Virus record (IMG/VR): IMGVR_UViG_3300036835_000414
Location: 1-28,516 of that record
Length of the DNA: 28,516 bases
Source: a virus
Strand: one strand, 5' to 3'
A model generated the notes under the pieces. It was not told the origin of the DNA. It worked only from the letters and a program-made list of their open reading frames with translations, and did no database searches. This document shows positions 3,861 to 28,454 of this stretch, one piece after another (the stretch's first letter is position 1; every line of letters begins with the position of its first letter). The translations under genes and the position numbers were made by a program.

Positions 3861-3978
3861 CCGCTCATTAAAGATCCTCTAATCGTGCTTACCCGCTCGG
3901 GCCGTCCTGTCGTTACCGCGCTTCCGTCTTGGGAGCAAATGAGATATTCGGCAGTCTCGTCGGGAAATGCAAACCCGA

Positions 3979-3993
3979 CGACAACATTTGTCG
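3979..3993. promoter_or_regulatory. Palindromic site CGACAA-CAT-TTGTCG
   Basis: A perfect 6-3-6 inverted repeat, 31 bp before the ATG of the second XRE gene. It has the same architecture as the 15-bp operator at 3100-3114 but a different sequence, so it may be the autoregulatory operator of the second XRE protein. An 8-bp stem (TCGTCGGG/CCCGACGA, 3957-3981) overlaps its left edge. Confidence 0.35.
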
Positions 3994-4023
3994 CGGTCTT
4001 CCGAGACTCCGCGCGGTTCGCGC

Positions 4024-4254
4024 ATGCTCTGGGGGCCCGATTACGAGGCCTTCCGGAGGCGATTAGTCCAGGCGCGGAAGCTGGCGAAAATGACGCAACG
4101 CGATGCCGCGACAGCGCTTGGTCGATCGCCGAGCTATGTGGCCAAGTCCGAGAACGGCGAGCGGCGCGTCGACATCGTCGAGCTGCTGCATTTCGCACGG
4201 ATCTATCGCAGGTCGCTACAGTACTTTGCCGGATCCGGCCGACCGAAAGATTAG
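4024..4254 (+). CDS. Second XRE-family regulator, 76 aa
   Basis: A single HTH_3 domain: FRRRLVQARKLAKMTQRDAATALG, then SPSYVAKSENGERRVDIVELLHFARIYRRSL. The TQRDAA-x-x-LG-x-SPSYVAK-x-ENG-x-R pattern is the classic XRE recognition motif. The frame opens at an ATG at 3967, but the added 19 residues are polar and cross a palindrome, so I prefer the ATG at 4024 (MLWGPDYEAF), the usual start form of this family. The stop codon lies inside the stem of a terminator. It is divergent from the small 3721 gene. A second regulator or antirepressor for the lysogeny switch is the likely role. Confidence 0.75.
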   Translation: MLWGPDYEAFRRRLVQARKLAKMTQRDAATALGRSPSYVAKSENGERRVDIVELLHFARIYRRSLQYFAGSGRPKD

Positions 4255-4270
4255 AGCGCTCTAATCTTTT
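4246..4270 (+). terminator. Palindromic terminator after the XRE gene
   Basis: A perfect 24-bp palindrome with arms AAAGATTAGAGC (4246-4257) and GCTCTAATCTTT (4258-4269), followed by another T. The stop codon of the XRE gene is within the left arm. The hairpin followed by a T run suits a Rho-independent terminator; because it is symmetrical, it would also work on leftward transcripts. It separates the regulatory genes from the lipoprotein genes. Confidence 0.55.
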
Positions 4271-4358
4271 ACAGAGGCACGGACCGGAGGTTCGCCGTGT
4301 CTACCGCAACCCCGTCGTGCCTGTCATCTTCGATCGTGTGAACTCTTCAAGGACTCGT

Positions 4359-4826
4359 ATGCGCTTTGCGATGCCGGCTCTACTACTGGCCCTCGTGGCA
4401 GCCTGCGGAAGCGATTCGACCGCACCGAATCCGGCGGCATGGGCGACGGGGACATGGGTCGCGGTTCTGGCAAATGGGAAGCCACTTCCATTTCGCGATT
4501 CGCAAACCTATCCGTACGTTCAATATGACAGTCTCGTGATAATCGCCTATGCATCGCCGAGGGGACCCGAGTACTCCTTTGCCGGTGTCTTCCCGTCCGC
4601 GACGCTCTATTTTTCCTCAACAGTGGCGCCGAGTCAGATTATCTGCAGTGACCCGGGCACGACGCTGTTGGCCGACGCGACCGAATTCGCGACCCTTGCG
4701 AAAGGCACGCGGACCCTGATCGGAAACTGCAACGTCGCCTGGGTGAATCTGACGTTCAGGCGCGCGGGCGATTCACTCGCGGGGATCTGGAACGGCGCGG
4801 ACATCCGCCTGACTCGGCGTCAATGA
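4359..4826 (+). CDS. Gemmatimonadota-style lipoprotein 1 (probable phage cargo), 155 aa
   Basis: MRFAMPALLLALVAACGSDSTAP is a type II signal peptide with a lipobox (VAAC, Cys at residue 16). Gly, not Asp, follows the Cys, which under the usual rule predicts outer-membrane sorting. The mature part begins with AWATGTWVAVLANGKPLPF and is strand-rich, like small lipocalin-like lipoproteins. The open frame extends back to 3885 but overlaps the XRE gene, so the start is the ATG at 4359 with AAGGACTCGT before it. It shares the CGxDSTAP start and the G-x-W-x-x-V...NG...LPF pattern with the next gene, so the two are probably paralogs. Its place between the repressor region and the tail genes, on the repressor strand, suggests a lysogenic conversion gene, possibly for superinfection exclusion (inference). 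Confidence 0.75.
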   Translation: MRFAMPALLLALVAACGSDSTAPNPAAWATGTWVAVLANGKPLPFRDSQTYPYVQYDSLVIIAYASPRGPEYSFAGVFPSATLYFSSTVAPSQIICSDPGTTLLADATEFATLAKGTRTLIGNCNVAWVNLTFRRAGDSLAGIWNGADIRLTRRQ

Positions 4827-4861
4827 CTCCCTTCCGTATCCCGCCCTTTCAGGGATTCAAC

Positions 4862-5308
4862 ATGCGCTTCGTGACGCTGGCCCTCCTCGCAGTCCTCGTC
4901 GCCTGCGGCAGAGATTCGACCGCGCCGCCGCCACCGATCGACGATGCCTGGGCCGGGTCGTGGATGCTCGTCTCCGTGAACGGTTCCGCGCTGCCGTTCG
5001 ACTTCGAGGTTTCGGGCTACCCGGCCCGCATCACTTCGCGAGCGTTGGTGCTGCTATCGGGGGGCTCCGGAGTCTGGTCCGACTCGAGCGAAGCGCTGTG
5101 CGCGGGCGCCACGCCATCCTCGAAGAGGCTTTGCGAGGCGGGAGGCTCCGCCGTCATTTCCTGGGCGCCCACAGCTGATACGGTCGTGGTGAGCGCGACG
5201 CCGGCGAGTACGGGGACGGTATCGGCGATCAAGAGGTTCGTCGCGCAGAAAGACGGCTCGATTCTCAGAACAGACGGTGGCGAGACCGAGATCTATCGCA
5301 AGCGATAG
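4862..5308 (+). CDS. Gemmatimonadota-style lipoprotein 2 (probable phage cargo), 148 aa
   Basis: MRFVTLALLAVLVACGRDSTAP is a type II signal peptide with lipobox LVAC (Cys at residue 15). The mature protein starts with DAWAGSWMLVSVNGSALPF, like lipoprotein 1, and the rest is strand-rich with two further Cys (EALCAGA and KRLCEAG) that may form a disulfide. The start at 4862 has AGGGATTCAAC before it. An in-frame ATG at 4823 overlaps the stop of lipoprotein 1 and would add 13 residues ahead of the signal peptide; I think it unlikely, but it allows translational coupling. The stop (TAG 5306-5308) directly abuts the stop of the convergent gene (CTA 5309-5311), with no terminator between them. Confidence 0.75.
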   Translation: MRFVTLALLAVLVACGRDSTAPPPPIDDAWAGSWMLVSVNGSALPFDFEVSGYPARITSRALVLLSGGSGVWSDSSEALCAGATPSSKRLCEAGGSAVISWAPTADTVVVSATPASTGTVSAIKRFVAQKDGSILRTDGGETEIYRKR

Positions 5309-5678: not shown

Positions 5679-7106
5679 TCAGAAGAGATCGGGAATGAAC
5701 GACGTCTCGGCCGGATCCGGCGCGACGCTCGTCGCGATTGCATCGGCCGCAAAGGTGGCCTCGACCGCATCGGGCACGAAGATCGCCCGGGCCCAGATCG
5801 GCCCGAGCACAGTCGTCACGAGCGAGGCGAGACCGACGGACCCGAGCACGCCGACGATCACGCGCCCGATGGATTTCGCGAGCGCGCCGGTGGGCGCAAT
5901 CACGCCGCCGATCGCGCGGCGAGAGAGCCGCGTCACCGCGCCGCTGGCGGCGAGCGTGCCGGCGACGCCTTTCGCGGTCTGGCGCAGGACCGCGCCGCTC
6001 GATGCGATCGTGCCGCCGACGGCGCGCAGGATGACCTTCAGGAGACTGATCGCGCCGCTCGAGCCGATCGTGCCGGCTGCCGGCTTGGCGGCCGCTTTCG
6101 CGGGCGCACCGCTCGGCCCCGTGACACCGGCCGCCAGCTTCGCGGGCGCGCGCGTGATCGAGGCCGATGGCGCGACCGACCCACCGCGCCCCAGGAGCGC
6201 GGCGCGACTGACGGTGCCAGCGGGAGCGGCTCCGCCGGTCTTCACGAGCGCGGCGAGCCGCGTGATCGTGCCGGCCGGGCCGATCGAGCCGCCAGCGGTG
6301 GCGGTAAACGTCGTGCCACCGGCCGGGGGTTTGTAGGCGATGCGTCGGAGCGGACGGCGCCCGATCCGCGGCGGCCCGCTAAACCAGAGCGGCGTCGCGC
6401 TCGCGAGACCGGCGAACGCCGGCTGGCCATAGCCCGACCGATCGGGCTCGTACCCGAATCCCTCCTGCCCGTCGAGCGCGTAGTACGCGACAAGCCCGTA
6501 CGGGAAATCGAGCGGCGACGCCCCGAGAAAGAGCGCGAGGCCGATGCTGTCAGGGATCTTGTATGACCAGATGGCGAGATGCGCGATCGCGCCCGGCGCC
6601 CCGGCGTTGAAACTGGCGGAGCCGATGTTGCCGATCGCGAGCCGGGTCGGTGTGCCGGTCGCGGCCGGGTTATTTCCGTTGGCCGAGAATCCAACATTGC
6701 CCGCGTCGGCCATGCCGTTGAACATAAAGTCCATCGACGAACTATTCACTGAGGCGTGATTCGATTCGCGCGCGATCACATGTTGCCAGGTATTCAGGAC
6801 CGGCGACGCATTGGATTCATTGCGCTTCGATCCGCTCGTCGCGCTGCCGCCGACGAACCGCCAGCGCTGCGGCGTGCCGGTCGCGATCTGCAATTTCCAG
6901 CCGCCGGTGAAGACGTTGTCGCTCGCGTCCACGATCGTCCGCACCGTGGACACCGTCGCGGTGGGATAATACCAGCACGCGACGCTCATCGCCGAGAGAT
7001 CCGGATAGAGCGTCGTGGCGAATGGGATGCGGAGCCCCTGCGTGCCGCCGTTCGTGTGGAGGCGCGAGAGGTTGTGATTGGGGCCGACCGGCCGCACGAG
7101 GCCCAT
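5679..7106 (-). CDS. LamG-like lectin-fold tail protein with nine 18-aa repeats, 475 aa
   Basis: Residues 1-215 look like a concanavalin A/LamG-type jelly roll: LSAMSVACWYYPTATVSTVRTIVD, WKLQIATGTPQRWRFVGG, LNTWQHVIARES, FMFNGMADAG, AIGNIGSA, GAIAHLAIWSYKI, then LVAYYALDGQEG, the usual order of LamG motifs. Residues 272-425 hold about nine tandem units of about 18 residues with the core G-G-[TSV]-[ILV]-x-x-[SA]-[GS]-[AT]-[IV]. The C-terminus has a second set of short repeats (FVPDAVEATF, FAADAIATS, FIPDLF). A glycan-binding receptor adhesin at the tail tip is the likely role. The start at 7106 lies 7 bp after the upstream stop; no strong ribosome-binding site is seen. Confidence 0.65.
   Translation of the reverse strand: MGLVRPVGPNHNLSRLHTNGGTQGLRIPFATTLYPDLSAMSVACWYYPTATVSTVRTIVDASDNVFTGGWKLQIATGTPQRWRFVGGSATSGSKRNESNASPVLNTWQHVIARESNHASVNSSSMDFMFNGMADAGNVGFSANGNNPAATGTPTRLAIGNIGSASFNAGAPGAIAHLAIWSYKIPDSIGLALFLGASPLDFPYGLVAYYALDGQEGFGYEPDRSGYGQPAFAGLASATPLWFSGPPRIGRRPLRRIAYKPPAGGTTFTATAGGSIGPAGTITRLAALVKTGGAAPAGTVSRAALLGRGGSVAPSASITRAPAKLAAGVTGPSGAPAKAAAKPAAGTIGSSGAISLLKVILRAVGGTIASSGAVLRQTAKGVAGTLAASGAVTRLSRRAIGGVIAPTGALAKSIGRVIVGVLGSVGLASLVTTVLGPIWARAIFVPDAVEATFAADAIATSVAPDPAETSFIPDLF
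5802..6293 (-). repeat. Tandem protein repeat region (about 9 x 18 residues)
   Basis: The units start near residues 272, 291, 308, 326, 344, 364, 382, 400 and 418 of the 475-aa protein, spaced 17-20 residues apart. Examples are GGSIGPAGTITR, AGTIGSSGAISLL, GGTIASSGAVLRQ and AGTLAASGAVTR. The repeats are diverged at DNA level, so they are old or under selection, not a recent slip. Confidence 0.75.
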
Positions 7107-21062: not shown

Positions 21063-22379
21063 TCAGGTGCGAGTGTTGAGCGTCGAGAAGAAGCCGCGCG
21101 CGGTCGATCCCTTGTACGGCGTGACCGTGGTGTTCCACACCGGCTTGCCATCTGCGCGATAGGTAATCCGGATCGTCGTCTCGTCGTTGAGAAAGCGGAC
21201 ATGGAGGCTCGTCGCCACCTGTGCGCCGCCTTTCTCGCCGAAGTGGTACTGCGACGGCGCGATCGCGATGATGTCGCCGGGCGTGCCCGGTGCCTCGCAC
21301 AGCTCCGACGCGAACGCCGGCGCACCGAGGATCCGATCGACGCCCGCCTGATCTCCCAGGTTGCCAGCGGCGACGAACACCGGAATCGTCGAGCTCCCCG
21401 TCCCGACCGTGGCGAGCATGAGCGTCGACAGGAGCTCCTGGTTGTACAACCAGATGATGTCCTTCCAGAGCGAGGCCGGGATATTGGCCTTCATCTTCGT
21501 CACGTTGGCGGCGATGAACTGCGCGCTGTTCGCGATGGTCTGTGTCGCCTCGATCGCCTGAACGACACCGCCCTTGCCCTTGAGGAAGCCGAGAATGTGG
21601 GATCCGCCGACGCCGCGGAACGCTTCGCTGGAGAGCATGAACTGCAGTTCAGTCGTGAACGCCGTCTGGAGCAACGCCGCCGCCGCCGGCGAGTCCTGCA
21701 TCTGCTCATCGGTCAGATAGCCGAGGCCCATGATCTTCTTGAGCAGCTGCTCGACCTGGCGCAGCTTGTACTTCTTCGCGGCGACCGTGTCGGCTTCGTC
21801 GGCATAGAACATCTGGATGCCGCCCCAGCGCGATCCGTCGACGCGCGAGCTCTCGTCGACCACGTTGTACACGGTGCGGTTGCTCGTCGAGCCGATCGGG
21901 ATGCGCGTGGTCCGCGACAGAAATGGATCCGTGGTGTAGACCGGCTCGATCACGCCAGGCAGAACCTCCGGCGCGATGAAGAAGCCGCCCTCCGAGCCAA
22001 CCGACTCGTTCATTCCACTGGGAGAGCCAGCCATCATGTCGAGCGCGCCCGCGCGATCGATCTGCATCGCGTTATGATTGACGCGCACCAGACGCGCATC
22101 GGCGCGGCCGAACCGCCTCGCCGCCACGATCGATTGCAGCTGATCACCGAGATTCGCGAAGGGCCTCTCGGCCTCGCGGTCCGCACCGACGACGATCGAC
22201 GGCGCGGCCTTGGCCTTCGCGTGCACGTGCTCGAGCACGCGCGTCGCGGTCTGATCTTCGGTGAGGCCTTCGTTCACCATCGCTTCGATGGCGTCGTCGG
22301 GAATCTGATGCGTCTTGCCGATGGCGCGGATCCGGCTGGCTCGCTTGCGCTCCGCGGCGAGGATCTCTTCTGCGGTCAT
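21063..22379 (-). CDS. Internal start: major capsid protein with scaffold-like N-terminus, 438 aa
   Basis: Met410 of the fusion is an ATG at 22379 preceded by AAGGACGTCCAC, giving AAGGA with 7-nt spacing, a better site than many genes here have. Translation from it would give a 438-aa protein: a scaffold-like helical segment of about 70 residues followed by the HK97-fold capsid. This is analogous to lambda C/Nu3, where the scaffold starts inside the protease gene, but here it is the capsid itself. It would allow many capsid copies per protease. The start is inferred from the sequence only. Confidence 0.5.
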   Translation of the reverse strand: MTAEEILAAERKRASRIRAIGKTHQIPDDAIEAMVNEGLTEDQTATRVLEHVHAKAKAAPSIVVGADREAERPFANLGDQLQSIVAARRFGRADARLVRVNHNAMQIDRAGALDMMAGSPSGMNESVGSEGGFFIAPEVLPGVIEPVYTTDPFLSRTTRIPIGSTSNRTVYNVVDESSRVDGSRWGGIQMFYADEADTVAAKKYKLRQVEQLLKKIMGLGYLTDEQMQDSPAAAALLQTAFTTELQFMLSSEAFRGVGGSHILGFLKGKGGVVQAIEATQTIANSAQFIAANVTKMKANIPASLWKDIIWLYNQELLSTLMLATVGTGSSTIPVFVAAGNLGDQAGVDRILGAPAFASELCEAPGTPGDIIAIAPSQYHFGEKGGAQVATSLHVRFLNDETTIRITYRADGKPVWNTTVTPYKGSTARGFFSTLNTRT

Positions 22380-23606
22380 GTGGACGTCCTTGTTCGAGGT
22401 GATGAGGGAGAGCGTTGGAGCAGCTGGAGCAACGGTTGACGCCGACGTGTCGTCGGCGGGTGAAGAGGCATTCGGCGACGCTCGCGCGCTCCGCCCGGCC
22501 GCCTCGTCGGTGCGGTAGCTACACGCGGTACAGGTCCCGTCGTCGTTCATCGGCGCGTTGCACTCGGGACAGAGATCATCCTCGTCGTCATCGGGCTCGG
22601 GCTCTGGCGATGGATCGTCCGCGCGGCGCGCGGCGCCGGTCTCGAGGACCACCGGAGGCACGGGCAGCTCGCTGTTGCCGTCGAAGGTGGCCGCAGATTG
22701 TCCGAGTGCGCGCCGTGGGCGGCCGCTCATGCCGACGTCCTTGGCGCCGAGCCGATTGAGCGTTTCCTCGAGCGTCGCGATTTTGTCGATCATGCCCGCG
22801 GCGAGCGCCTGCTTGGCGGTGAGGGAGCGGCCCTGGCCGAAATCGCTCTTCACCGCGGCGACTGAGACGCCGCGATGCTTCGAGACGGCCGCGACGAACA
22901 TCTGGCCCATTTCGTCGACCTGGCCCTGAATGAACGACTCGGCATCCGCGGAGAGCGGCTCCCACGGATTGCCCTCGGCCTTGTGCTCGCCGTACTTGAT
23001 GATCGTGTACTTGAGCCCGAGCTGCTCGTCGTAGCCCGACTCGTCGAGATGGACGCAAAAGACGCCGATCGATCCGGCTTCGCCCGACGGCGTGCAGACG
23101 ATCTCGTCGCAGGCCGAGCAGATCCAATACGCGGCGGAGCACATCTGCCCGTTCGAGACGGCGATGAGCTGCTTGCCTTTCCCGCGCGCGCCGAAAATCC
23201 GCTTCGCGAGCTCCGGCGTGCCGGTGACGTTGCCGCCCGGCGAGTCGCAGTCGATGACGATCGCCGACACATTCGGATCGTTCATCGCCGCGTCGAAATC
23301 GTCGGCGAAGCGTTCGGCCGACGTGCCGCCGCAGAGCGCCATCATGAGATCCATGCGCTGCGCGATGACGCCATACATCGGGAGCACGGCGATCGCGCCG
23401 CCGTTCTTCGTCACCGGGCGCCGCTCCGCGGCCTTCGGCGTGCGCTCGACCGCCGCGATCTCCTCGGCCGACAGTTGGCCGGCGGCGCGGAGCTCGACAT
23501 ACGCAAGCAGCTGCTGGCCGGCGCGCGGCTCGATCGCCCACGGCGTGGCGGCGATCGCGCGACGGACCGCGGGGAGCTTGAAGCGCGTGATCGTCGGCGT
23601 GGTCAT
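21063..23606 (-). CDS. S49 protease / zinc-ribbon / scaffold-like / HK97 major capsid fusion, 847 aa
   Basis: The start at 23606 has GAGGA with 5-nt spacing, at the end of the portal gene. Residues 70-290 are an S49 (SppA/gpC-like) protease: IDCDSPGG at 118-125 (oxyanion loop), the nucleophile Ser157 in MCSAAY, and Lys209 in GEHKAEGNPWEPLS as the likely general base. Residues 330-365 are an acidic linker with a CxxC...CxxC zinc ribbon (Cys346, 349, 359, 362). Residues 410-480 (TAEEILAAERKRASRIRAIG, then IPDDAIEAMVNEGLTEDQTATRVLEHVHAKAKA) look like the scaffold segment found at the C-terminus of phage prohead proteases. Residues 530-847 are an HK97-fold capsid (EGGFFIAPEVLPGVIEPVY, SRVDGSRWGGIQMFYADEAD). 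Head maturation is inferred: self-cleavage would release the capsid part. Confidence 0.8.
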   Translation of the reverse strand: MTTPTITRFKLPAVRRAIAATPWAIEPRAGQQLLAYVELRAAGQLSAEEIAAVERTPKAAERRPVTKNGGAIAVLPMYGVIAQRMDLMMALCGGTSAERFADDFDAAMNDPNVSAIVIDCDSPGGNVTGTPELAKRIFGARGKGKQLIAVSNGQMCSAAYWICSACDEIVCTPSGEAGSIGVFCVHLDESGYDEQLGLKYTIIKYGEHKAEGNPWEPLSADAESFIQGQVDEMGQMFVAAVSKHRGVSVAAVKSDFGQGRSLTAKQALAAGMIDKIATLEETLNRLGAKDVGMSGRPRRALGQSAATFDGNSELPVPPVVLETGAARRADDPSPEPEPDDDEDDLCPECNAPMNDDGTCTACSYRTDEAAGRSARASPNASSPADDTSASTVAPAAPTLSLITSNKDVHMTAEEILAAERKRASRIRAIGKTHQIPDDAIEAMVNEGLTEDQTATRVLEHVHAKAKAAPSIVVGADREAERPFANLGDQLQSIVAARRFGRADARLVRVNHNAMQIDRAGALDMMAGSPSGMNESVGSEGGFFIAPEVLPGVIEPVYTTDPFLSRTTRIPIGSTSNRTVYNVVDESSRVDGSRWGGIQMFYADEADTVAAKKYKLRQVEQLLKKIMGLGYLTDEQMQDSPAAAALLQTAFTTELQFMLSSEAFRGVGGSHILGFLKGKGGVVQAIEATQTIANSAQFIAANVTKMKANIPASLWKDIIWLYNQELLSTLMLATVGTGSSTIPVFVAAGNLGDQAGVDRILGAPAFASELCEAPGTPGDIIAIAPSQYHFGEKGGAQVATSLHVRFLNDETTIRITYRADGKPVWNTTVTPYKGSTARGFFSTLNTRT

Positions 23607-23613
23607 CGCATCC

Positions 23614-25191
23614 TCATAGGGCCGCCAGGTGGCGGGCGCCGGATCCGGACGACTTGCCCGTGCCGTCGCCGTCGCCCTGGTTCGTCTCGTCGGTCTCGCC
23701 TTCGGGGCTGACCGTCGTCGGCGTCGTGCCGCTCATCTGATTGCCGCTCGTATCGACGTCGTTCGCCTCGGCGTACTGCTGCTCGAGCGCGAGCTCGTCG
23801 ACGATGTCCTCGTAGTCGTACCCGCGTTCGCCGGCGAGCCGGGTGCGGCTGTTCAGGCCGAGATCGATCTCCATCTTCGCCGCGCGGAGATCGTTGTATG
23901 GCTCCGTCCATTTCCAGCCGCGGCCGTGCCACGTCACGGCATAGAAGTCGGCGCCGAGCCGGCCGTCGACGCCGATCGCCCCGCGCAGCGTCGCCTGATC
24001 GACCCAGTCGCGATAGGTGACGCGGTTGTCGTGCATCGCGAGCCAGCCCTGCAAACCGCGCCAGCGATCGCGTTCGGGGATCGTGCCCGCGCGCTGCGAG
24101 GCGTAGTTCGCCTGGCGGAGATCGCCGGTGAGGGTCATGTACGACGTGCGCAGTCCGCGCGCCGTCGCCCGGTGCACGGCCATCACGAATTGCTCATAAC
24201 CGACGCTCGGAAACGTCGGGTCGATCGACTCGATCTCCTGGCCCGGCAGGAGCTCCGGCATGATGCCGGGCTCCATCGCGAACGTCTTCGGCTGCTCGCC
24301 CTTCTTCGGCGGCTCCCACGCTTCGATCGCGTTCGGATTCTTGTTGAGAATCACCGCCATCTTCGACGCGCCGGCGCGCGCGGCGACGAGGTGGCTCAGC
24401 TCGTACTCTTGCTCGTGGCGCAGCGACGCGAGCACCGGCGCGAGCCAGGTCACGCCGCGCGGGATGTTCGCCCGGTGCCACCGCACGAAGAGATGCTGAA
24501 TGTCCTCGGCCGCGATGCGTTCCCGCGTGCGCTCGACCGTACTGTTCATGTCCTCGGCGTAACGATTCCACGCGTGTACCGCGACGGTGCGATTCCGCCG
24601 ATCCTTCTCGAGGCCCATGACGATGCGATTGCCGTTCGGCAGCGACGGGACGTTGTACGTCTCGTCGACGAGATCGGCATCGAGGATCTGCTGCGCGTAG
24701 CCGTACGGATTGTCGACGCCGCGGAGGCGCCGCACGAAGACTTCGCCGTCGACGGCAATCGTGATGATCTTCTGCCGCTGCAGCTCGATCCAGCTGTCCT
24801 GGCCGTCGGCGCTCGCGTACTCGGGCACGCCCCACGCATCCCACGCTTCTTCAATCGCCGCGTTCGTCGTTTTCGCCGGCTGGCCGAGCGCGTTCTTGAT
24901 CTGCGCGTGCAGGCGAATGCCGTTCGCGCCGACGACGTTGTTCGCGAGCTCGTCGAGGAAGCCGACGATCCACGGATTGTTCCGCGCGAAATACCGCGCG
25001 CGCGCGCGCATCGTCCGGAATCCGTAGCGCGTTTCGAACTCCGGCGAGACCGTCCAGGTGTCCCAGTCCTGGTAGAGGCGATCGTACGACGCGCCCTGCC
25101 AGACGCCCGTCGAGCTCCGCCGCGCCGGCGCCGGCGAGAGCCCGTGCGCGACACGGCGCAGCGCGTTGGCGAGGGATCCGCGGATCGTCAC
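23614..25191 (-). CDS. Portal protein, lambda B family, 525 aa
   Basis: GTG start at 25191, overlapping the upstream stop (GTGA). Lambda-type portal features: SPEFETRYGFRTMRARARYFARNNPWIVGFLDELANNVVGANGIRLHA at the N-terminus, LQRQKIITIAVDGEVFVRRLRG, QQILDADLVDE, RIAAEDIQHLFVRWHRANIPRGVTWLAPVLASLRHEQEYELSHLVAARAGASKMAVILN, then MTLTGDLRQANYASQRAGTIPERDRWRGLQ and a C-terminal AKMEIDLGLNSRTRLAGERGYDYEDIVDELALEQ. It forms the twelve-subunit ring at one vertex through which DNA enters and leaves. The acidic, Gly-rich C-terminus (GETDETNQGDGDG) is typical. Confidence 0.85.
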   Translation of the reverse strand: MTIRGSLANALRRVAHGLSPAPARRSSTGVWQGASYDRLYQDWDTWTVSPEFETRYGFRTMRARARYFARNNPWIVGFLDELANNVVGANGIRLHAQIKNALGQPAKTTNAAIEEAWDAWGVPEYASADGQDSWIELQRQKIITIAVDGEVFVRRLRGVDNPYGYAQQILDADLVDETYNVPSLPNGNRIVMGLEKDRRNRTVAVHAWNRYAEDMNSTVERTRERIAAEDIQHLFVRWHRANIPRGVTWLAPVLASLRHEQEYELSHLVAARAGASKMAVILNKNPNAIEAWEPPKKGEQPKTFAMEPGIMPELLPGQEIESIDPTFPSVGYEQFVMAVHRATARGLRTSYMTLTGDLRQANYASQRAGTIPERDRWRGLQGWLAMHDNRVTYRDWVDQATLRGAIGVDGRLGADFYAVTWHGRGWKWTEPYNDLRAAKMEIDLGLNSRTRLAGERGYDYEDIVDELALEQQYAEANDVDTSGNQMSGTTPTTVSPEGETDETNQGDGDGTGKSSGSGARHLAAL

Positions 25192-25948: not shown

Positions 25949-27952
25949 TCAACGGAGACGGCCCCACCATCCCGAGCGGCCATGCTCCCGGAGGCCGGTC
26001 CGCTCCGGCTCATTCGGCTCGACCGGTGTCGGCGCCTCCGGATCCGGCGGTGGCGCCTCCGCTTTCGCTTTCAGCTGCTTGCCCTCGTCCGCGAGCTCCT
26101 TCGCTAGCTCGCCGAGCCGCGAGGCGAACGTCGCGCCCCGCGACCGAAGGCCGGCGAGATTGCCAACATAGTGATCGATCGCCTCGTTTCGCTTCTGCGC
26201 CGGGTTGATGTATTTGACCACCGGACGATTGTTCACGAATTCGACGAGTCGCTGTTCGGCGGCGTACTGCAGGAAGTACGCATCGTCGGCGCCGGTCTGC
26301 GCCTCGAGGCCAAAATGCATGTAGCCCGGCCCGGGCGCCGTCTTTTTCAGCCGCGAGAACAGCACGTCCTTGAACGTCGTCGGGTTGATCGTGAATACGC
26401 GGACGCCGTCGCGATTCGCCTTACTCGCGCGCGACAACGGCACTTTCGCATTGTCGGCACCCTTCGAGGCGTGGACGCGGCCGCCGGGCATCGACTTCAC
26501 AAACCGAAACACTGGATCCTTCTTGAAGCCCGAGTCGACGAGGCAGACGGCAATGCGTATCGAGACGCCGGATTCGTGCTGCCATTCTCGATCGAGCATG
26601 GCGCGCGCGCGGTTCCACACGTCGTCAAACTCCGGATCGCCGATCAGTCGCTCGAGTCGAATGTGATAGGACTCCTCCTTCGCGGCCCAGCCGCGGACAT
26701 CGACTTCGATGCGGTCCCCGTGTACGTCGATGAAGGCGGTCAGTGCACCGACCGCGGCCGGGACTTCGGCCGCATATGCCTCACGCCGGGAGGCCAGCTT
26801 GCTCGGATCGACACGATCACCGATACCGACCCACAGCAGTCCGAGCGTCGTGTTGAAAAACGTCTTCAGCTGCTGCTCGTCATCCTTCTTCGCGAGGAAC
26901 TCCGCGGCGATCTCGCCCCACCGCACCCACGGCGACAAGAGACCGGGGATGTGCCAGCCCGCGAGTGAACTCGACGGATTGTGCTTCACCCATTCGCCCT
27001 TGGACACCATCCACGCTTTATAACTCTCGGCGATGAGGCATCCGCAATCCCGACAGAGATACTGCGCGGTCTCTGGTCGGTGAACGACGGCATCGCCCTC
27101 GCCTTCCTTCTCCCACACGAGGCGATAGATCCCGGTCCCTGGGGCGATGCCCGGCTGGCCGCCGGTGTCGCGCCACTCGAGTGGTTGCTTGTGGCCGCAG
27201 TGTGGACAGGGCACGTAAAAGTGCCGCTGATCGGAAAGCTTCCACTCGCCGGCGATGCGACTCTCGCCCTCATTGCCGGGCGACGACACCTTCACCGCTT
27301 TCTTCCGATGGCGAAAGGTCACCTGGCGCTTCTTCGCGAGCGACAGTGGGTCGCCCTCTGTACCGGCCGATTTCTCCCAGCGATCGATCTCGTCGGCGAG
27401 CACGACGCGGATCGGCCTCGAGGCGAGACCCGCCGGCGAGTTCGCGCCGGCGATCGTGATCTGGCCGCCCGGGAACGTCTTGTGAAACACAGTGTTGCCG
27501 GAGTCGCGCGATCGCGGATCCTTCACTTTGCCGCGCAGGCGCTCGCAATCGCGGATCATCGGCGCGATACGGTCTTTCGAGAACGCCTCGCCCATCGGCT
27601 TGACGTTCGGCTGAATGATCAGGATCGGACTCGGCTCCTGGTCCATGAAGAAGCCGGCGGCGTTGAGGAGTACTTCAGAGCCGGCCGATTGCGCGCACTT
27701 CACGATCGTGAGATCCTGCGTCGTGCGATCGCACGCGGCGTCGAGGATCTCGCGGAGATACGGCACGCGCTCCGTGCGCCACTGGCCGGGCTCGGCGGAG
27801 CTCTCGGGCGAGAGCATGCGATATCGATCGGCCCAGACGGATCCGGACAGCCGAGGCGCCGGCACGAGTCGCGCGCGGGCCGTCGCCGCCGCAACGCGCC
27901 GCGCGCGCCGGAGCGACGCGGAACTATTGATCGGCGATCGCCGCGGTGTCAT
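25949..27952 (-). CDS. Terminase large subunit, lambda GpA family, 667 aa
   Basis: Start at 27952 with GAGG before it; it overlaps the small subunit gene by 29 bases. Lambda-type order of motifs: a Walker A variant around residues 85-92 (KCAQSAGSE), a Walker B at 183-188 (VVLADEID, Asp187/Glu188), a CPHC/CRDC zinc site (Cys249, 252, 300, 303), and in the nuclease domain AFIDVHGDRIEV (Asp409) and VDSGFK (Asp473). The length fits GpA. It cuts concatemers and pumps DNA into the head with ATP. A GpA-type enzyme implies cos packaging, with the cos site expected near or beyond the right edge of the window. Confidence 0.9.
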   Translation of the reverse strand: MTPRRSPINSSASLRRARRVAAATARARLVPAPRLSGSVWADRYRMLSPESSAEPGQWRTERVPYLREILDAACDRTTQDLTIVKCAQSAGSEVLLNAAGFFMDQEPSPILIIQPNVKPMGEAFSKDRIAPMIRDCERLRGKVKDPRSRDSGNTVFHKTFPGGQITIAGANSPAGLASRPIRVVLADEIDRWEKSAGTEGDPLSLAKKRQVTFRHRKKAVKVSSPGNEGESRIAGEWKLSDQRHFYVPCPHCGHKQPLEWRDTGGQPGIAPGTGIYRLVWEKEGEGDAVVHRPETAQYLCRDCGCLIAESYKAWMVSKGEWVKHNPSSSLAGWHIPGLLSPWVRWGEIAAEFLAKKDDEQQLKTFFNTTLGLLWVGIGDRVDPSKLASRREAYAAEVPAAVGALTAFIDVHGDRIEVDVRGWAAKEESYHIRLERLIGDPEFDDVWNRARAMLDREWQHESGVSIRIAVCLVDSGFKKDPVFRFVKSMPGGRVHASKGADNAKVPLSRASKANRDGVRVFTINPTTFKDVLFSRLKKTAPGPGYMHFGLEAQTGADDAYFLQYAAEQRLVEFVNNRPVVKYINPAQKRNEAIDHYVGNLAGLRSRGATFASRLGELAKELADEGKQLKAKAEAPPPDPEAPTPVEPNEPERTGLREHGRSGWWGRLR

Positions 27953-28454
27953 CGGGCAGCGCCTCGAGCTCGTCAGCGCCGGCGCGGAGCAAGAGGGTCA
28001 GATCGTCCGCGATCGCTGTCAGCTCGGCTTCGGCTTTGGCGGCGTCGATGCCGAGCGCCTCGAGCCGGATCGAATAGTTGCCGGGCATATTCACGAGCGC
28101 AGCGCGGAACCGATCGCACAGCTCACCAACGACGACGTCGACGTGCGCTACTTCCACGAGTTCGCCCTCACGCTCGGCGACGTCCATCTCAGCGAGTTTC
28201 GTCTCCGCCTCCTCTCGCCGGCGTTGTAGCTCAGCGCGCGTGGATGTCGACGCCTCGCGGAGCTCACGCTCGATGCTCGCACGAGCCAGACGCACGGCGC
28301 GCTCGCCGTGCCAGGGAATTACGGTCGGCGGGTCAAATTCCCGCGCGCGACCGCGAAGGGTCGACGGAATCGGCGGGTCCTCGTTCAACCAGTTCGTCAG
28401 CGTGCGACGATTGATGCCGAAGATTTCACATACCTCGGCCGCGGTCCAGATCAT
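27924..28454 (-). CDS. Terminase small subunit, lambda Nu1-like, 176 aa
   Basis: Residues 3-25 form a winged HTH (TAAEVCEIFGINRRTLTNWL), then P-x-x-x-R-G-R-A-x-E-F-D-P-P-T-V-I-P-W-H-G-E-R-A, the pattern of Nu1 N-termini. Residues 60-95 are a charged helix (ERELREASTSTRAELQRRREEAETKLAEMD), followed by a helical C-terminal part that probably binds the large subunit. It is the first gene of the late operon, just before GpA. It binds the cos region and brings the large subunit to it. No strong ribosome-binding site precedes the ATG. Confidence 0.8.
   Translation of the reverse strand: MIWTAAEVCEIFGINRRTLTNWLNEDPPIPSTLRGRAREFDPPTVIPWHGERAVRLARASIERELREASTSTRAELQRRREEAETKLAEMDVAEREGELVEVAHVDVVVGELCDRFRAALVNMPGNYSIRLEALGIDAAKAEAELTAIADDLTLLLRAGADELEALPDDTAAIADQ

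Follow-up and report, generated by a model that had tools for sequence, protein, structure and literature searches.

The stretch of viral DNA analysed here (the window; 28,516 nt, IMG/VR record IMGVR_UViG_3300036835_000414) quite probably carries, on the evidence of sequence comparison, a tripartite capsid gene of an uncultured tailed virus, in which an internal start yields a scaffold-capsid protein next to the full-length product. The fusion is read as a lambda-type protease-scaffold gene running into an HK97-family capsid, with a Nu3-type start that would now make scaffold-capsid. The gene lies on the minus strand and is laid out as follows:

21063..23606 (-), protease - zinc-ribbon linker - scaffold - major capsid gene, one stop-free frame, 847 aa
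22749..23399 (-), S49 (SppA / lambda C-type) protease domain, residues 70-286, with Ser157 and Lys209
22521..22571 (-), four-Cys zinc-ribbon-like motif CPEC...CTAC, residues 346-362
22377..22502 (-), disordered linker, residues 369-410, pLDDT <50
22387..22391 (-), internal Shine-Dalgarno-like (SD) AAGGA, 7 nt before the Met410 ATG
22377..22379 (-), internal start ATG (Met410), predicted 438-aa scaffold-capsid product
22209..22373 (-), helical scaffold segment, residues 412-466, related to the PHROG 4523 protease-capsid fusion scaffold
21066..22163 (-), HK97-family major capsid region, running from the PFANLGDQL anchor at residue 482 to the C-terminus, with PF05065 at 540-825

An earlier note on this DNA had described one 847-codon frame of protease, ribbon, scaffold, and capsid, and this content was recovered by translation and Pfam; the minus strand went unmentioned there. 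Peptidase_S49 (PF01343) was matched above cut-off at residues 142-286 (1e-29), PHROG 53 (head maturation protease) was aligned to residues 9-491 (3e-90), and SppA was the closest PDB match of the protease, by sequence and by fold. The catalytic residues named earlier, Ser157 and Lys209, agree with Pfam and the alignment of fusions: Ser157 is kept in every fusion covering that residue, and the column of Lys209, which in the window sits in GEHKAEGNP, is K in 6 of 9 fusions, the other three having K two residues off in a gapped stretch. With its S49 domain and catalytic Ser and Lys, this part of the protein is a lambda C-type head maturation protease. The C-terminal part is an HK97-type major capsid protein, with Phage_capsid (PF05065) matched at residues 540-825 (6e-21, 75.6 bits against a cut-off of 24.2), a TIGR01554 score of 88.9 for the 847-aa protein against a cut-off of 27.5, and PHROG 10 (major head protein) aligned to residues 505-826.

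The sequence is a metagenome contig, and two genes could have been fused by an assembly or sequencing artefact; the chance of this is negligible, since L003, from another sample, is identical to the window over residues 1-355, and L171, L172, L010, and others, together with L002 (70% identity over residues 244-847, frame likewise uninterrupted), are uninterrupted fusions from other samples. The frameshift or sequencing error that the earlier note had considered is excluded by L002 and these other relatives. Split relatives (L043, L008, L011-L017), which it had likewise considered, do exist, but they lie on separate branches, and the nearest relative, L002, has no stop.

Further S49 fusions were sought by protein and alignment searches, and 15 fusions entered the junction count described below, with gene-start residues at some loci picked by eye from stop-to-stop frames. 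The first set of single-frame S49-capsid fusions comprised L010, L044, L045, L049, L055, L075, L076, L089, and L093, the later-found ones were L171, L172, L174, L214 (copies L213, L215), and L248. In all, the frame is unbroken in L002 and in about a dozen IMG/VR relatives more distant than it. The search for other S49-HK97 fusions proposed earlier thus succeeded in IMG/VR but found none among 50,697 phage records, where no locus covered 80% of the query (about 1,000 records matched, part of which were inspected); the best matches there, Bradyrhizobium phage ppBdUSDA122-1 and Caulobacter phage TMCBR2, both have separate protease and capsid genes. A fusion of an S49 protease with a PF05065 capsid seems not to have been described before.

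At the putative internal start, the DNA 5' of Met410 reads AACAAGGACGTCCAC-ATG, with AAGGA at 7-nt spacing as first noticed. The equivalent in L002, whose linker has diverged from that of the window and is 12 residues longer, is AACAAGGAGCAACCC-GTG, in which AACAAGGA is kept and the start has gone from ATG to GTG. The corresponding junctions read AGGGAGGATTCC-ATG (L010), GAGGGAGGAACCC-ATG (L045), GAGGAGGACCGCACG-ATG (L049), CAAGGAGAATACC-GTG (L055 and L075), CAGGAGGATCGCACC-ATG (L076), CGAGGAGAGCACC-GTG (L171), and CCAGGAGTTCGACC-ATG (L248; AGGAG, 7 nt, ATG). In the fifteenth S49 fusion, L089, the core is GGAG, 4 nt. Met293 was rejected as an alternative internal start, its AAGGA reading ACCGA in L002 and so not being kept. 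Products predicted from the internal starts are 429-448 aa long across the S49 fusions, a size like that of stand-alone capsid genes, which in split relatives have open frames of about 430-490 aa for the most part.

Recurrence of the site was counted in a junction zone 45-115 aa upstream of the PFASLG anchor, defined after the first fusions had been seen. An in-frame ATG or GTG with an SD core of at least 5 nt at 5-9 nt was present in this zone in 14 of 15 S49 fusions, in 11 of 247 other in-frame windows of equal size, and at 0 of 30 out-of-frame positions within the zone. Taken alone, the Met410 SD-start is weak evidence, with a predicted SD energy of -5.4 that ranks 8 of 43 in-frame starts, is among the weakest of the junction sites, and falls within the range of other genes of the same virus; it rises above chance because the same site recurs in relatives. 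Of the first 11 fusions, 8 had their best junction-zone start in first place by predicted SD energy (combined P 8e-5; 9e-4 when the 8 non-redundant ones are taken), as did all five found later (P 0.0015, four independent), these P values being optimistic and the independence overstated because the fusions are kin. In L248, the first-ranked site is inside the scaffold, and its junction site scores -6.9. In-frame junction sites were stronger than those in other frames (Wilcoxon P 0.002), and the predicted internal SD was stronger than the gene-start SD in 7 of 8 fusions. Synonymous-codon shuffling gave no significant excess of SD at the junction (Fisher P 0.24), because, with GC-rich codons, the amino acid sequence ahead of the start leaves the SD little freedom to vary; in principle, then, selection could be acting on the protein.

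As a method control, the same ranking was applied to lambda gene C, where codon 309 was the top-ranked in-frame start, with AGGAGGGCGA-ATG at lambda 5342 (L162:943), which we take to be the corrected Nu3 start. At the GenBank nu3 start, lambda 5132 (L162:733), there is practically no SD (0.5 kcal/mol, 30th among 37 in-frame starts). Unfused lambda-type protease-scaffold genes (L022, L025-L027, L029, L035, L036, L040, and L041) have a strong SD-ATG directly after the S49 domain, the same internal start in most cases. The predicted start of the fusions is of this Nu3 type, an in-frame SD-start at the protease/scaffold border that is conserved in relatives.

AlphaFold confidence was low (pLDDT 52 for the full protein, 49 for the 438-aa product), because only 10 sequences were available, and only the protease fold (SppA) and the scaffold helices are usable. 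Residues 369-411 were predicted to be disordered (pLDDT <50), and helices were predicted at residues 412-432, 437-445, and 450-466 (pLDDT about 75-84), which places Met410 on the linker/scaffold border. The scaffold segment matches PHROG 4523 ('major head and protease protein') in 8 of 10 fusions, at positions 222-279 of that family (9e-5 for the window, best 3.6e-8). Comparison by hhalign with Nu3-type scaffolds was not significant (probability 0.8%; the phrog_53 alignment spans residues 9-491), and no significant similarity was found by hhalign to the delta-like N-termini of split relatives. The capsid genes of the split relatives L043, L053, and L062 open with a coiled-coil-like N-terminus of their own. 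Linkers of L171 and L172 are ~140 aa longer, with an extra domain (SWSNTVSDEPDW...HVHTGGVNAAWSAAQGG), and the S49 proteins of L004 and L005 may hold similar inserts.

The four-Cys zinc ribbon reported earlier is present in the window, where Cys346, Cys349, Cys359, and Cys362 form CPEC-CTAC. Among the S49 fusions, it was found only in the window, L002, and L248 (three lineages), in each case 5' of the internal start, a position that confines it to the full-length form, and this distribution rules it out as a defining element of the fusions. With only three lineages carrying it, the ribbon is, judging from this distribution, a local addition and not essential, and the zinc-ribbon linker that the earlier note had singled out as a notable joint cannot be central; that it serves to fold or tether the protease arm is our guess. 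In a ClpP-capsid fusion (L052:2294-4333), a strong internal SD-ATG is followed at once by a zinc-ribbon motif, CKICGTVLVEGKCPTC, 3' of the start.

A tailed phage has to enclose a few protease molecules in a shell made of hundreds of capsid proteins. What the sequences show is the order of the domains, a frame without interruption, a conserved SD-start, and a product of matching size; initiation at codon 410, stoichiometry, co-assembly, and cleavage are inferred. Full-length translation would give protease-scaffold-capsid, and ribosomes that enter internally at codon 410, which corresponds to the Nu3 start within lambda gene C, would give the 438-aa scaffold-capsid. The short form, in excess, would build the procapsid with scaffold inside, a few full-length molecules would co-assemble via their own capsid domain, placing protease in every shell, and after assembly the protease would cut the scaffold and itself from the capsid. 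One gene would probably make little protease and much capsid in this way, the nested start settling both stoichiometry and protease packaging, with the protease entering as a capsid subunit. The capsid itself had been proposed earlier as the internal-start product; this main inference is well supported by the conserved junction SD-start in the S49 fusions, but the product would be scaffold plus capsid, not capsid alone, scaffold-capsid being likely because the position of the site matches that of the Nu3 start inside lambda gene C.

It is unlikely, by comparison, that the gene makes a pure polyprotein, all capsid being produced full-length and then cut, with the internal SD-ATG unused. The product of the MD8 gene has been described as 'a single propeptide' (PMC9855967), the S49 domain could self-process, and codon shuffling gave no sign of synonymous-site selection, all of which a polyprotein would accommodate; yet 14 of 15 fusions have a 5-nt SD core with an in-frame start at the same position, a combination that is almost absent from the rest of the frame, the start swaps between ATG and GTG while SD and product size stay, and several hundred protease domains per shell would presumably need room. 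The coupling of SD and residues, together with the non-significant shuffle, would also fit SD-like codons that merely encode a conserved protein motif, such as a cleavage site before the scaffold, with initiation irrelevant. This is very improbable, since the residues vary by lineage (NKDVHM, AREDSM, HEEDRTM, RAEESTV, TAETVSM), the constant parts are the SD core at 5-9 nt and the ATG or GTG, and ClpP and S78 fusions have unrelated residues there, yet SD-ATG again. Internal initiation at the protease/scaffold border, the preferred reading, offers a simple alternative to the single propeptide, a reading applied to at least one tripartite gene that would imply as much protease as capsid, and it is testable in the cultured phages F10, MD8, and RcBaka. 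It also carries a caution for gene callers, as the true capsid start in tripartite genes may be internal.

Mapping the S49-fused state onto the capsid tree (quick tree method) takes six changes, of which well-supported branches force at least four, so that either fused and separate states have alternated or capsids have been swapped. The fusion gene of the window is preceded by a packaging module:

23614..25191 (-), lambda-family portal (PF05136), directly upstream of the fusion gene
25949..27952 (-), GpA-type large terminase
27924..28454 (-), Nu1-like small terminase (PF07471), which completes the lambda-like packaging module

The resulting order of Nu1, GpA terminase, lambda-family portal, and fusion gene is the lambda order up to C. 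Elsewhere in the window, a long GC-only CCG tandem array at 79-319 yields frames consisting almost wholly of Gly or Ala; at 3885-5308 (+) lie two adjacent small lipoprotein-like frames whose signal peptides end in CG(S/R)DSTAP, possible surface or exclusion genes and a hint at the host group; and a protein with a Laminin_G_3 (concanavalin-like) domain at 5679-7106 (-) is possibly a tail or receptor-binding protein.

Genes joining protease, scaffold, and capsid are already known from Gifsy-2, MD8/F10, and RcBaka. The Gifsy-2 gene, reportedly described in 2010 (Virology 402:355), is said to join a ClpP protease, scaffold, and capsid. Gene 5 of Pseudomonas MD8/F10 holds protease, scaffold, and capsid in one gene, internal initiation not being discussed in the MD8 paper (PMC8508860), and gene 10 of Rhodobacter capsulatus phage RcBaka (RcC cluster) is a fused protease-scaffold-capsid (PMC8601537). 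Judged by its predicted domains, the window gene is of the same tripartite kind, one frame with an N-terminal protease, a C-terminal HK97-fold capsid, and scaffold between. It shares with Gifsy-2 and MD8/F10 the union of protease, scaffold, and major capsid, and differs in pairing S49 with PF05065, whereas those phages have a ClpP-like protease and the F10 capsid is PF25209. The NCBIfam fusion families scored far below cut-off (NF045540, 36.9 against 475 bits; NF045541, 22.6 against 525 bits). RcBaka has an S78 protease and a PF25209 capsid, and resembles the window in carrying AAGGA 6 nt before ATG214, directly before the scaffold.

At the protease/scaffold border, RcBaka (S78; L278:1454-3496) has an in-frame SD-ATG, F10 (ClpP; L163:2414-4495) has AGGAG before ATG220, and Pmp14 (ClpP; L169:2432-4465) has AAGGAG before ATG214. 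The fusions L052 (ClpP), L098 (S78), L141, and L144 likewise have SD-ATG at the scaffold border, and an S78-capsid fusion outside the S49 group, L152, is a counter-example in which no clear internal SD was seen. That internal initiation at this border is the expression rule of all tripartite capsid genes, S49, ClpP (F10, Pmp14), and S78 (RcBaka, L098) alike, is a tentative generalisation from few cases, to which we give slightly less than an even chance. If it holds, it would be mistaken to read the genes of known cultured phages as coding for a 'single propeptide', and with a nested start viruses could go from split to fused genes and back again, more than once.

Of the unfused systems, HK97 resembles the window in carrying a scaffold at the capsid N-terminus (the delta domain of gp5) and differs in that its protease, gp4, is a separate gene. 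Lambda C and Nu3 are like the window in that protease (S49) and scaffold lie in the same frame, that the scaffold has its own internal start (predicted in the window), and that the packaging module is ordered Nu1-A-B-C; the lambda capsid, E, is encoded separately and belongs to another family (PF03864), whereas in the window the capsid follows the scaffold in frame.
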